The notes below the pieces were generated by a model. It ran no database searches. It saw only the letters and a program-made list of their open reading frames with translations, and was not told the DNA's origin. Both the position numbers and the translations under genes were made by a program. Below are positions 3,869 to 10,993 of a stretch of 10,993 bases of DNA, in pieces. Source of the stretch: Candidatus Woesearchaeota archaeon (GTDB lineage: Archaea; Nanobdellota; Nanobdellia; SCGC-AAA011-G17; JACPNG01); contig JAGVXQ010000050.1 of the NCBI GenBank assembly GCA_018303705.1, positions 1 through 10,993 on the forward strand, written 5' to 3'. The number at the start of each line of letters is the position of its first letter. Position 1 is the first letter of the stretch.

Positions 3869-5686
3869 ATGGTTTCTAAAATAAAACAACACTCAACAGG
3901 CATGGGCTATATTGGTGGTTCCCAAAAATACCCTGTTTATGATACATTTGAGCCTGCATTTGTTGGCTTCAAAAAAGATAAGGCAAGAGGCTTGGAATCC
4001 AAAATAAAATCAGGCTACAAGGTTGAAGACCTACAAGACGCCAATAATATGGGTTTTCTTGGTTACAAAATAACAAATACGTCAACAGGTGAAATATACA
4101 CATTTTCTCCAAATTCAAGGCTTACTCTTGAAACAAGATATCTCGAAAAGAATGAAAAAAAAGAAGTTGTTGAAAATGTCTTAGACTTAATGACAAGAGT
4201 TGCTGTGAATATAGCTAGCGCAGATTTAAAATACAATAAAAAAGTAAATATCGAGCCAACTGCAAGGCAATTCTTAGAAGTTATGCTAAATCGTGAATTT
4301 CTGCCGAACACACCAACATTATGCAATGCAGGCCGTGAGCTTCAACAGTTGTCAGCATGCTTTGTATTGCCTATAGATGACTACATAGCTACAGACGACA
4401 TTGGTGAGGATCCAGAAAAGCAAGGCAATGGGATTTATGACGCAAACCGTTACATGGCAATGATACACAAAAGTGGGGGTGGCACCGGCTTTAATTTTTC
4501 AAGGCTAAGGCCCAAATCAGACAATATTTGCACCACTTTCGGCTCATCATCAGGCCCAATACCGTTCATAAAATCCCTTGATTCATCTACAGATGCAATA
4601 AACCAGGGTGGATTTAGGCGTGGAGCCAATATGGGTATACTTGAATACTGGCATCCAGACATTTTCGAATTTATACATGAGAAAACAAAAGGCACACTAC
4701 AGAATTTCAATCTTTCAATAGGTATTGATTCCACATTCATGAAAGCAGTAGAAACAAATGGTTATTTTTCACTAATAAATCCAAAGAACCAGGCAACAAT
4801 GCCTCTCGAAGAGAGAATATACAAGGCACATAGCTTATTCAAGCAGAAAAAATTTGATGGCGAACTAACAGAACAGCAAGAACGTGAAAGAACTGAATAC
4901 GAGCGCATACTTAAAGAAATGGCTCCTTCCCTTGTCTTAAGCGAAGACAGCAATCTGGTAATCAATTATTACAACAACCAAGTTGTCGGCAAAATTGGTA
5001 AAAATAATGAGGTCCTAATAGAAGCAAAAGCCTTGTTCATGTACATTGCAGAATGTGCACATGCAACTGGCTGTCCAGGACTGATATTCCTTGATCGTAT
5101 GAATAAAGACAATCCAACACCTCATATAAGTAAGATAGAATCAACAAATCCCTGTGTAATAGGTAGTACTTTGGTTGCAACATCAAAAGGTTTAGAAAGA
5201 ATTGACAGCCTTATAGGGAAAGAAATTGAAATACTTACAAACATAGAACTATCTAGCTCAAATGGGATAATACAGAGAAGCTTAATTATAAGAAAAATAA
5301 AAGGTGCTTTTAAGACAGGCACAAAGCAAACTTACAAATTAATAACAGAATCAGGTTATGAAGTTATAGCTACGTCTAACCATAAGATATTGGCCAGCAA
5401 TGGATGGAAACAACTAAAAGATATAAAGATAGCAGATAAAGTAATTATACAATCAGAAAAGTCCTTATTTAACCAAAATGTAACATTGCCTTTTTCAGAT
5501 AAAAAATGGACGAAAGGATTAGGTATAATGTTGGGCTGGTTAATTGGAGACGGTTGGTTCATAAACAAAGGCAAAAATTGCAGAGCAGGCTTTATTTTTG
5601 GCAGCAACACAATTAAATATTTAAAAATCATTAAAAAAACGTTCAATGAGATTTATGGTAAGGATATAAAAGAGATTAAATTATAA
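3869..5686 (+). CDS. nrdJ: Class II ribonucleotide reductase, N-extein plus N-terminal part of an interrupted intein
   Basis: Adenosylcobalamin-dependent reductases convert ribonucleotides to deoxyribonucleotides through a cysteine thiyl radical. Residues 1-428 are the N-terminal part of the barrel: FLPNTPTLCNAG at 144-155, the redox Cys 164 in LSACFV, GGGTGFNFSRLRP at 203-215, and NQGGFRRGANMG at 245-256. No ATP-cone precedes the barrel. The reductase breaks at STNP, and an intein begins with Cys at 5153 (CVIGSTLVATSKG). About 177 intein residues follow: splicing block A, block B with TSNH (Thr 74, His 77 of the intein), and the first LAGLIDADG helix LGWLIGDGW with its Asp. The frame then ends at TAA 5684-5686, and the intein resumes in the -1 frame. 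The gene starts an operon with the dUTPase-fold gene. No second reductase is seen in the window. Confidence 0.93.
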   Translation: MVSKIKQHSTGMGYIGGSQKYPVYDTFEPAFVGFKKDKARGLESKIKSGYKVEDLQDANNMGFLGYKITNTSTGEIYTFSPNSRLTLETRYLEKNEKKEVVENVLDLMTRVAVNIASADLKYNKKVNIEPTARQFLEVMLNREFLPNTPTLCNAGRELQQLSACFVLPIDDYIATDDIGEDPEKQGNGIYDANRYMAMIHKSGGGTGFNFSRLRPKSDNICTTFGSSSGPIPFIKSLDSSTDAINQGGFRRGANMGILEYWHPDIFEFIHEKTKGTLQNFNLSIGIDSTFMKAVETNGYFSLINPKNQATMPLEERIYKAHSLFKQKKFDGELTEQQERERTEYERILKEMAPSLVLSEDSNLVINYYNNQVVGKIGKNNEVLIEAKALFMYIAECAHATGCPGLIFLDRMNKDNPTPHISKIESTNPCVIGSTLVATSKGLERIDSLIGKEIEILTNIELSSSNGIIQRSLIIRKIKGAFKTGTKQTYKLITESGYEVIATSNHKILASNGWKQLKDIKIADKVIIQSEKSLFNQNVTLPFSDKKWTKGLGIMLGWLIGDGWFINKGKNCRAGFIFGSNTIKYLKIIKKTFNEIYGKDIKEIKL

Positions 5687-6240
5687 GCTTCTTGGAATCT
5701 TTAGGTGTAAAATCTGCCAAGGCTGCTGAAAAATCAGTCCCAACAAGTATTCTTACAGCACCAGAATATGCTGTTAAGGGATTCTTACAAGCATTATTTA
5801 GTTCTAATGGTACTATAAATATTACAAAAAACAAAACTAGGTACATACGGTTAACTTCAAAATCTAATAAATTATTGAAAGAGGTCCAAATTTTGCTATT
5901 AAATTTCGGGATAAAAAGCCATATTTACGAAAGGCATAGAAGTAAAAGAATCGTATTTAGCTATAAAAATCTTAAAGGTGAACTGAAGCTTTATCAAAGT
6001 GATGGTAAATCGTATGAACTACAAATAAATAAAGACATGCTGCCATTATTCCTAAAAGAAATAGGCTTCATTTATGATATGCATTCTAATGAAATAACCG
6101 AATTAAAGAATGCTTCTTATTATCATACAGATTTTACAGATAGTGTATTCTCTATAGAGGAATATAGCATTGAAGACGTATTCGACTTAACAGAACCATC
6201 AACACATTCATTCATAGCAAATGGGATAATTGTACATAAC
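5153..6240 (+). other. LAGLIDADG intein in nrdJ, out of frame internally
   Basis: The element runs from Cys1 (5153) to the terminal Asn (6238-6240) and is followed directly by Cys+1 of the reductase. It is 1088 bases, one short of 363 codons, which independently shows the frame problem. Splicing residues are present: Cys1, block B Thr and His, block F (VFDLTEPSTHSFIANG), and the His-Asn pair at the end (IIVHN). The endonuclease is of the two-motif type: LGWLIGDGW near 5530 and FLQALFSSNG near 5782. In the second motif the acidic catalytic residue is replaced (SSNG instead of DADG), so cleavage activity is doubtful. The switch from frame 2 to frame 1 can only lie in 5678-5686, between a stop in each frame. 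Confidence 0.9.
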
Positions 6241-7842
6241 TGCGGGGAACAGCCATTACTCCCTTATGAGTCATGCAATCTTGGCAGCATTAACTTAGCA
6301 GGATGCATAACAGATAATGGCAATATAAATTTCAATAAAATAGAGTATCTTACAAGAACTGGAGTGCATTTTCTGGATAATGTCATAGATAAGAGCAAGT
6401 ATCCAACAAAGAAAATATATATGGCCACAAAAGGCAACCGCAAGATTGGCTTAGGTGTAATGGGATTTGCAGATATGCTATGCATGCTTGGCATTCCATA
6501 CGAAAGCAAGGAAGCATCAGAACTTGGTGCAAAAATAATGAGTTTCATAGATGAAACAGCAAAAAATGAATCAGAACATCTTGGAAAAGTTCGCGGAGTA
6601 TTCCCTCAATGGAAAGGCAGCATATATGATCCAGACTCTGAATTTTGTGATCCAAGCAAAAAAGGCAATCTATACAGAAACGCAGCAGTAACTACCATAG
6701 CGCCAACAGGTACAATATCTATGATAGCTGGTGTTTCAAGTGGCATCGAGCCATTGTTTGGCCTGGTATTCACAAAAAACTGTATGGATGGCAGAGTATT
6801 GCATTATACTAATAACATATTAGATAACAGATTAAGGAATGGTGGTTGCAGGCCGGAAACAAACCTTGAAGAATTAATGGCTGAAATTGAAAAAAAAAGC
6901 AGCATACAAAGCATAGGCAGCATAGACCCAAAAACAAAAGCAATTTTTATGACAGCACATGAAATATCACCAGACCAGCATATAGGAATGCAACAAATAT
7001 TCCAAAATCATGTAGACAATGCAGTTAGCAAGACAATAAATCTAGGTAATGAAACGTCTGTTGAAGAAATTGCTGCCATATACATGTATGCCTACAAAAT
7101 GGGTTGCAAAGGCATAACTATCTACAGAGATGGCTCTAAGGACAATCAAGTCCTAACAAAAGGTAAAAATTTAGCAGACCTTGTTGTAGAGGAAGTGAAA
7201 TTACCAAAAATAGTTCATGAATCAGACTCTGCCAGTAAATACAAGGTAAGAAGGGAGCTAAACAAAGACAGTTTGCATATAACAATAACAGATAAGCTTC
7301 ACGTAGATAGGAAAACCAACAAAGCCTATCTGGTTCCAAATGAAATTTTCCAAGACCGAGCACCTCTTGGAGAGGAAACAACAGTCGACTTCCAGCAAGA
7401 AGGCATGGACAGGAGCGAGATGTTAAAGGCGCCAAATCCGGATTATGCAGAGATTACAAGAAGATGGAAGTCAGCTTCTTCAAATGATGAAGAAGGTTTA
7501 GGCCAACTAAGAATCAAGTCAAAGCATCATGCAGTTGGCGTTACAATGGAATATCATTTGTTAAAGCATGGTATTGTAGGCTACGATTCAGCAAATAACA
7601 ATGCTCTAATTAACCTTGTTAGAAAAGCGGACCTAGAGCTTGTTATCGACGCAGAAGAAAAAAGAAGAATATTGTCTAATGGTCGTGTAGCTAAAAACAA
7701 AGATAATGTACTTCAAGTAAACACAGCAGATAGCAATGCAGATTTCAAATGTGATTGTGGAAGCACAGAATATTATTTTGAAGCAGGCTGTCACAGCCCA
7801 AAATGCAAGAAATGTGGCTGGAGCGAAGGGAATTGTGGTTAA
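5692..7842 (+). CDS. nrdJ: Class II ribonucleotide reductase, C-terminal intein part plus C-extein
   Basis: This frame is open from 5680. The first possible start is a TTG at 5692, without a Shine-Dalgarno; the next is an ATG at 6037, also without one. About 183 residues belong to the intein: the second LAGLIDADG helix, then blocks F and G ending HN. The C-extein begins CGEQPLLPYESCNLGSINL. Joined to the N-extein it rebuilds NPCGE, where Cys is the thiyl-radical residue and Glu the general base, and ESC supplies the partner of redox Cys 164. The spacing of 11 between these cysteines matches the Thermotoga enzyme. APTGTISMI near 6700 is the phosphate-binding loop. The C-terminus has CDCG and CKKCGW cysteine pairs, likely a zinc ribbon or reducible tail. 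The spliced enzyme would have 961 residues. The TAA is followed after 3 bases by the next ATG. Confidence 0.9.
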   Translation: MESLGVKSAKAAEKSVPTSILTAPEYAVKGFLQALFSSNGTINITKNKTRYIRLTSKSNKLLKEVQILLLNFGIKSHIYERHRSKRIVFSYKNLKGELKLYQSDGKSYELQINKDMLPLFLKEIGFIYDMHSNEITELKNASYYHTDFTDSVFSIEEYSIEDVFDLTEPSTHSFIANGIIVHNCGEQPLLPYESCNLGSINLAGCITDNGNINFNKIEYLTRTGVHFLDNVIDKSKYPTKKIYMATKGNRKIGLGVMGFADMLCMLGIPYESKEASELGAKIMSFIDETAKNESEHLGKVRGVFPQWKGSIYDPDSEFCDPSKKGNLYRNAAVTTIAPTGTISMIAGVSSGIEPLFGLVFTKNCMDGRVLHYTNNILDNRLRNGGCRPETNLEELMAEIEKKSSIQSIGSIDPKTKAIFMTAHEISPDQHIGMQQIFQNHVDNAVSKTINLGNETSVEEIAAIYMYAYKMGCKGITIYRDGSKDNQVLTKGKNLADLVVEEVKLPKIVHESDSASKYKVRRELNKDSLHITITDKLHVDRKTNKAYLVPNEIFQDRAPLGEETTVDFQQEGMDRSEMLKAPNPDYAEITRRWKSASSNDEEGLGQLRIKSKHHAVGVTMEYHLLKHGIVGYDSANNNALINLVRKADLELVIDAEEKRRILSNGRVAKNKDNVLQVNTADSNADFKCDCGSTEYYFEAGCHSPKCKKCGWSEGNCG

Positions 7843-9926: not shown

Positions 9927-10565
9927 CTAAAACCTTTCTTTCACAGCAGCATATATCAAAGGCAGGGCTATAGTGGCATCGCATATTACATTCACATACA
10001 TGGCATTCTTGCTTAGCTTTCCCCATGATATTCCCTCTTTCAAGTCAGCCCCAGAAGAGCCGCCATATTGTGGTATGTCAGTTGATATTTGTACAGCATA
10101 ACTTGCTGACTTGGAAAACTGCAGTGCCTGCTGTATGTAATTCTTTGGAACACCGCCCCCAACATAAATAACACCTGTCTTCTTGCTGCTCCATGATAGT
10201 TCTATGATATCATTTAGGTCATCGAAATGCCCAAGCATCATTTTCTTGCCCTTCAGCATTTGCCCCCAAATCATTAATCCAATTGCAGAATCAGATATCG
10301 CAGGGCAAAATATAGGTATCTTGTTCCTGTAAGCAGTTTTCAGTATGGATTCATTCTTTTCAGGAAGCATCTTCCCTATTATCCACAAGAATTCCTTAAT
10401 GTTCTTTGCCTTGCTAAGCTCATCAAAATTTTTCTTAAAAAATCCTTCAAGCCCTATGTAAACATCATTTGGCATGAAAGAATCATATATTCTGTCAATG
10501 TGCTTTCTATTTAGTTCAACATCATCAATCCTTCCAAGGCCCTTTAAGAGCCTCGACCATATCAT
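9927..10565 (-). CDS. dys: Deoxyhypusine synthase, C-terminal part (frameshifted gene)
   Basis: Deoxyhypusine synthase transfers the aminobutyl group of spermidine to a lysine of aIF5A using NAD. This frame gives 212 residues from an ATG at 10565, but true homology begins around residue 9 (LGRIDDVEL) and includes RIYDSFMP, the NAD-site loop GGGVPKNYIQQ at 136-146, and SWGK with the catalytic Lys183 (Lys329 in the human enzyme). The region QYGGSSGADLKEGISWGK is the family hallmark. The preceding part of the enzyme is encoded in the other frame. Joining them near 10538-10546 gives a protein of about 300 residues, near the usual archaeal length. Independent start at 10565 would give a protein lacking the first third of the NAD-binding core. 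Confidence 0.85.
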   Translation of the reverse strand: MIWSRLLKGLGRIDDVELNRKHIDRIYDSFMPNDVYIGLEGFFKKNFDELSKAKNIKEFLWIIGKMLPEKNESILKTAYRNKIPIFCPAISDSAIGLMIWGQMLKGKKMMLGHFDDLNDIIELSWSSKKTGVIYVGGGVPKNYIQQALQFSKSASYAVQISTDIPQYGGSSGADLKEGISWGKLSKNAMYVNVICDATIALPLIYAAVKERF

Positions 10566-10833
10566 GGGTCAAGGTTGCCCCGGTTGTAACAAAAACATCA
10601 ACATATTTGTTTTTCAGAATGTCAATTATTATATTTTTCATTCCTCCTGGAACCATTGCTCCAGCCTGGCCAAGAAAGACCCTACAGTCTTTGTCTTTTA
10701 TCATCGCTTCCATTATGTCTGCTGCTTCTGCAATTCTTCCAGCGCCAAAAACACCGCTCTTTGACATTTGCATTACTATCTCGTTGACAGTCATTCCCCT
10801 TCTTACATTAATATGCTCTATCTTTTCTTTCAT
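10525..10833 (-). CDS. dys: Deoxyhypusine synthase, N-terminal part (frameshifted gene)
   Basis: 102 residues from the ATG at 10833. It carries the N-terminal half of the NAD-binding domain: FLGQAGAMVPGG at 53-64 and the conserved GATLTHDMVEAL at 85-96. After LKG the frame runs into PWKD and a TGA, while the homologous continuation is found one base further on in the +1 frame. The shift lies in the short run AAAGGGCC (minus strand). The ATG overlaps the upstream gene's TGA (ATGA), so the two genes are coupled. The enzyme is essential wherever it is known because aIF5A needs hypusine or deoxyhypusine, so a true null would be surprising. Confidence 0.85.
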   Translation of the reverse strand: MKEKIEHINVRRGMTVNEIVMQMSKSGVFGAGRIAEAADIMEAMIKDKDCRVFLGQAGAMVPGGMKNIIIDILKNKYVDVFVTTGATLTHDMVEALKGPWKD

Positions 10834-10993
10834 CTTTTTATTGCCATCTTGCTTTCCCCAGAAACAGGCAATATAAAATCAACAAAACATATTGAAACTA
10901 ATGCTGTTCCATACCTTTTGCTAGGCTCAAAACTTTTTATAAGCATTTTAACATCCCTCAGCTCTTTGTCCCTAAAGCTTGCCCTTGCAATCT
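10830..10993 (-). CDS. C-terminal end of an unknown gene, cut by the window edge
   Basis: The frame is open from the window end to a TGA at 10830-10832 and encodes at least 53 residues, ending GESKMAIKR. A hydrophobic stretch (ALVSICFVDFILPV) follows a charged region. I cannot name the family. Its stop overlaps the deoxyhypusine synthase ATG by four bases, so they share an operon. No other frame is open across this segment. Confidence 0.5.
   Translation of the reverse strand, partial: IARASFRDKELRDVKMLIKSFEPSKRYGTALVSICFVDFILPVSGESKMAIKR

Follow-up and report, generated by a model that had tools for sequence, protein, structure and literature searches.

Why does the only ribonucleotide reductase (RNR) gene found in the draft genome of an archaeon change its reading frame inside an intein? 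The stretch of DNA analysed here, called the window, is the entire contig C49 (10,993 bases) of genome G000, a draft of 615,432 bases on 63 contigs that is 70% complete. A class II RNR gene at 3869-7842 is interrupted by an intein, the halves of which lie in different frames, and RNR and intein domains are found on either side of the break. A gene for an ABCE1/RLI-type ATPase lies upstream of the RNR gene, and a dCTP deaminase-like gene and a deoxyhypusine synthase gene lie downstream; the best named match to the RNR locus is L031, from a Nanoarchaeota draft genome, which indicates an archaeal source, probably a member of the DPANN group. A match to an IS200-like (Y1) transposase is also seen near the contig end (22-282, minus strand). 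The gene is laid out as follows.

3869 to 5686, plus strand: upstream frame of 605 aa, which encodes the N-extein of the class II RNR (3869-5152) followed by the intein's N-terminal portion (5153-5683) and ends at the stop TAA 5684-5686
5153 to 6240, plus strand: intein of 1088 bases, inserted before the Cys of NP/CGEQ (codon 6241-6243; the slash marks the insertion point)
5678 to 5686, plus strand: the break, where alignment with relatives places a net 43 missing bases (versus P0003 and P0004) and the frame changes
5692 to 7842, plus strand: downstream frame, 716 aa when read from the TTG, with the second half of the endonuclease, the C-terminal splicing blocks and the RNR C-extein (6241-7842)

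An earlier note on this DNA had described the intein as 1088 bases long (5153-6240) and not a multiple of three, with an upstream frame that stops at 5684-5686 and a downstream frame that opens after a TAA at 5677-5679, and the present analysis agrees on each of these points. The two frames overlap at 5680-5683. The two start codons suggested for the second polypeptide, TTG 5692, five bases past the upstream stop, and ATG 6037, do both lie in the downstream frame.

The break falls in an intein that otherwise retains its splicing machinery. The motifs read from the sequence and its translation, and compared with relatives, are these.

5372 to 5383, plus strand: splicing block B, TSNH (TxxH), with T and H each present in 120 of 120 listed relatives
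5531 to 5557, plus strand: first LAGLIDADG motif, LGWLIGDGW, with its Asp kept, as in 114 of the 120 listed relatives
5779 to 5811, plus strand: second LAGLIDADG motif, GFLQALFSSNG, with Asn at codon 5806-5808, where the 120 listed relatives have Asp (117), Asn (2) or Cys (1)
6178 to 6240, plus strand: splicing blocks F and G (VFDL ... VHN), with the Asp and the terminal His-Asn kept, by comparison with the listed relatives

All of the residues expected of a class 1 intein are thus present, namely Cys1, the block B TxxH, the C-terminal His-Asn and a Cys at +1, and the claim that the splicing residues are intact at both ends is upheld by the listed relatives. The single frame continuous with the extein that class 1 splicing in cis calls for is absent from C49, whereas the nearest listed relatives have it. 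The pair of LAGLIDADG motifs also departs from the expected pattern of catalytic acidic residues, in that the second carries Asn; because this Asn replaces Asp, endonuclease activity may be missing whether or not the frame is intact. The position of the insertion can be placed on a known enzyme. Residue 815 of P0003, an RNR with a closely related intein, is the last residue of that intein and starts a match to residue 321 of the Thermotoga B12-dependent RNR (1xjk, 1xje), so the +1 Cys corresponds to residue 322, which we take to be the catalytic cysteine. An RNR from which the intein had not been spliced should be inactive. Apart from the frame break and the Asn, the element has the appearance of an ordinary mobile RNR intein inserted at the catalytic cysteine.

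Mobility is also suggested by comparison of inteins with their hosts. Between P0003 and the window, the intein halves are 88% and 90% identical and the exteins 71% and 68%; for P0004, another intein-bearing RNR, the corresponding values are 84% and 88% for the intein halves and 46% and 40% for the exteins. Intein identity so far above extein identity suggests that the intein has moved from one RNR gene to another. The presence of related inteins in strongly diverged RNRs (P0003, P0004 and P0005) suggests that horizontal movement has been recent. Some relatives have an empty site: G004, a genome of the same family, and P0124 have an RNR that lacks an intein at this position. The window's intein resembles the LAGLIDADG class II RNR inteins of P0003 and P0004 (NF006207/PRK08332) in its site before the catalytic Cys, its splicing blocks and its endonuclease fold family, and the NCBIfam profile NF006207 (PRK08332) gives one match spanning the intein and C-extein of P0003. 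It differs from them in that theirs are one open frame, whereas the window's copy lacks bases and has Asn in the second motif. Three other inteins found in G000 (on C10, C43 and C59) are each encoded by one unbroken frame. Two further RNR loci were observed in passing. At L005 (G015:C4), an RNR has, at the same site, an apparent short intein that lacks an endonuclease and is truncated where the contig ends; at L011 (G023:C15), the G023 RNR is interrupted by an in-frame TGA at about 2218-2220, a few residues ahead of its intein, and no stop is present there in G039, which belongs to the same genus.

How large is the lesion? The intein search found 1179 relatives, 120 of which were listed, and the counts given here rest on those 120. 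The inteins of P0003 and P0004 are each 377 residues, or 1131 bases, as against 1088 in the window, which amounts to a net loss of 43 bases located between the two LAGLIDADG motifs. In alignment A1, each of the seven relatives with an intein carries 15 residues at precisely the position of the break (615-629 in P0003), and all seven run through the segment in a single frame. The segment is also well conserved in length among the 120 listed of the 1179 relatives, being ungapped in 114, one position short in four, two short in one and five short in one. A one-base indel is ruled out by this 15-residue gap, and the earlier description of a one-base frame change is accordingly not borne out. Comparison with related genomes, as the earlier note had recommended, does place the break in C49 and continuous frames in the relatives; it is the size of the lesion that had to be revised. 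The missing segment was not found elsewhere in G000, where P0003 matched only the RNR locus and, at 30% identity, a distant intein on C10. The closest intact intein among the 120 listed of 1179 is 86% identical; an intact copy from the same species was sought, and none of the matches listed is closer than this over the intein.

The gap also bears on whether the two frames might be read as one. A -1 shift within the overlap at 5680-5683 could join them, and programmed -1 frameshifting or some other recoding would then yield one polypeptide from two frames. The overlap codons AAA TTA TAA do not re-pair in -1, however, no in-phase -1 slippery heptamer was seen by eye in 5672-5686, and recoding leaves the 15 missing residues unexplained. 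We consider recoding highly improbable, and a programmed frameshift was set aside because inspection by eye showed no in-phase slippery site.

If bases have been lost, it is informative to ask whether the RNR gene is alone in its condition. We surveyed 34 stretches of G000 (286,531 bases, 47% of the genome, window included) against 29 stretches (383,905 bases) of G004, the sole comparison relative for frame breaks. Two of 109 query frames were dropped as shadow frames, which left 107 genes, among which some shadows remain. Frame breaks were found in 7 of these 107, RNR included, and in 5 of 105 outside the window, an N run included. The breaks other than that of RNR are the following, each measured against G004.

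9930 to 10833 of the window, minus strand: deoxyhypusine synthase, split over two frames (10528-10833 and 9930-10565) by a net change of -14 bases near 10546
L068 (G000:C61): SMC, net -50 bases
L066 (G000:C53): PEP synthase-like gene, net -125 bases
L064 (G000:C41): glycosyltransferase, net -70 bases
L058: frame without a Pfam family, which may be a shadow frame, net -17 bases
L054: 14-base N run (N-filled gap), +13 bases

The reverse comparison gave breaks in 2 of 102 G004 genes, a DNA ligase (-11) and a methyltransferase (+14). The ligase, at L118 (G004:C11), has a net loss of 11 bases that breaks its frame, which shows that the G004 draft contains such lesions too. None of the breaks in the survey is a shift of one or two bases, although shifts near gene ends would escape the method, and this absence is unlike ordinary gene decay. 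Decay by nonsense mutation was likewise rejected. Stops fall inside matches in 13 of the 107 kept genes when G000 is the target, and in 11 of 102 when the comparison is reversed; in 12 of the 13 G000 cases the last stop lies near the match start, which is what alignment of stop-to-stop frames ahead of a true start should give. The remaining case (target L113) has a stop in mid-match. Several of the 11 reverse cases have a stop away from the match start, and at least one of these is a shadow frame (window 10478-10873, opposite deoxyhypusine synthase).

Similar lesions therefore occur in unrelated genes of the same assembly, and the only RNR found, SMC and deoxyhypusine synthase, all broken by multi-base deletions, are together hard to square with a living cell; an uncurated draft assembly accommodates them easily. 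Because several core genes are broken alike, we propose that a local assembly deletion is the best explanation of the break and probably the correct one. The real gene would be one uninterrupted frame for a class II (B12-dependent) RNR in an archaeon with a small genome, and its mobile LAGLIDADG intein, placed immediately ahead of the catalytic cysteine, would be removed by self-splicing in cis. A local error of assembly or sequence would have deleted a net 43 bases of the endonuclease region from the contig, which would put the downstream part out of frame. The deletion would then be absent from the living cell, and the spliced enzyme would be active. That error or recent mutation is the simplest view had been suggested earlier, and the intact frame of the relatives and the other multi-base breaks in G000 lend it support. 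Local assembly errors in draft genomes are reported to put incorrect genes into public databases, 13 of them in one 1.13-Mb genome (PMC7111523). The break described here resembles those errors of metagenome-assembled genomes in producing incorrect protein-coding sequences in an uncurated draft (PMC7111523). It differs in how it was recognized, in that the errors described in PMC7111523 were identified by missing read support and this break by sequence comparison, in a genome for which we infer a metagenomic origin.

Some observations run counter to an assembly deletion. A C-terminal half identical over all 716 aa (P0123) is present in the protein database on a 13,714-base contig, in a cluster of 3 member sequences; as this contig is longer than C49, another assembly or version has the C-half, and the reads behind it may or may not be those of C49. 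The N-half itself did not turn up in the protein database. As noted, the matches listed include no intact intein closer than 86%, and the frame-break survey relies on a single relative, G004. In addition, the replacement of Asp by Asn in the second motif is what one would expect of an endonuclease in true decay that has escaped selection, which leaves room for a real deletion. It is unlikely, though still conceivable, that the 43 bases are missing from part or all of the sequenced population through recent mutation, with the endonuclease under relaxed selection, as the Asn suggests, and with this RNR copy non-functional. Such cells would draw dNTPs or a working RNR copy from other strains, from a host or from the unrecovered part of the genome. 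A second RNR was not found in the recovered 70% of G000, and a copy made dispensable by a second RNR was rejected on this ground; with the genome only 70% complete, however, a second RNR could be missing from the assembly. A real deletion sits poorly with the several other core genes of G000 that carry the same kind of lesion, and with exteins that show no further frame break relative to G004.

The remaining possibility takes the junction at face value. Natural split inteins are known, as in Nanoarchaeum equitans PolB and the set of 'fractured genes'. As the sequence stands, and if the junction is real, the window holds what such an intein needs, namely two frames, each with extein and complementary splicing blocks. 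Trans-splicing is chemically possible, since Cys1, TxxH, the block F Asp, His-Asn and Cys+1 have all been retained, each on its proper half. A deletion would have split the gene between the endonuclease halves, and trans-splicing of two polypeptides, the second begun at the closely spaced TTG, would restore RNR at the catalytic cysteine, in what is the sole RNR found in the recovered genome. Split inteins are also known from metagenomes, for example NrdJ-1 (PMC13123727), and the likeness is that of two polypeptides, each with half a splicing domain plus extein, if both are made. Here, in contrast, endonuclease remnants are kept on both halves, the halves are adjacent, no relative with the same split was identified and trans-splicing is hypothetical. 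The nearest relatives of the RNR intein are unsplit (A1). Of the 315 proteins from the database that were compared, 9 have their start and 3 their end within the intein; P0123 is one of these, and the others mostly come from contigs shorter than 2,600 bases or carry a partial label. An exception is P0152, an RNR in the database whose contig has 10,202 bases; it starts within the intein and is possibly another broken or split case. Breaks of the same kind also occur in intein-free genes such as deoxyhypusine synthase and SMC, no Shine-Dalgarno sequence was seen by eye, and positive support for a split reductase was found in nothing beyond the intact splice motifs and the TTG spacing. We therefore regard a nascent natural split intein as improbable. 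There is only a slim chance that a small-genome archaeon has just split a mobile RNR intein within its dying homing endonuclease and rebuilds its only detected RNR by trans-splicing.

These data correct the lesion in this gene from one base to a net 43 bases, and they illustrate that a deletion in a draft genome can imitate a split essential enzyme. Should the junction prove real, it would represent a natural split intein observed as it arises, and a relative whose intact intein is 86% identical would serve for comparison.
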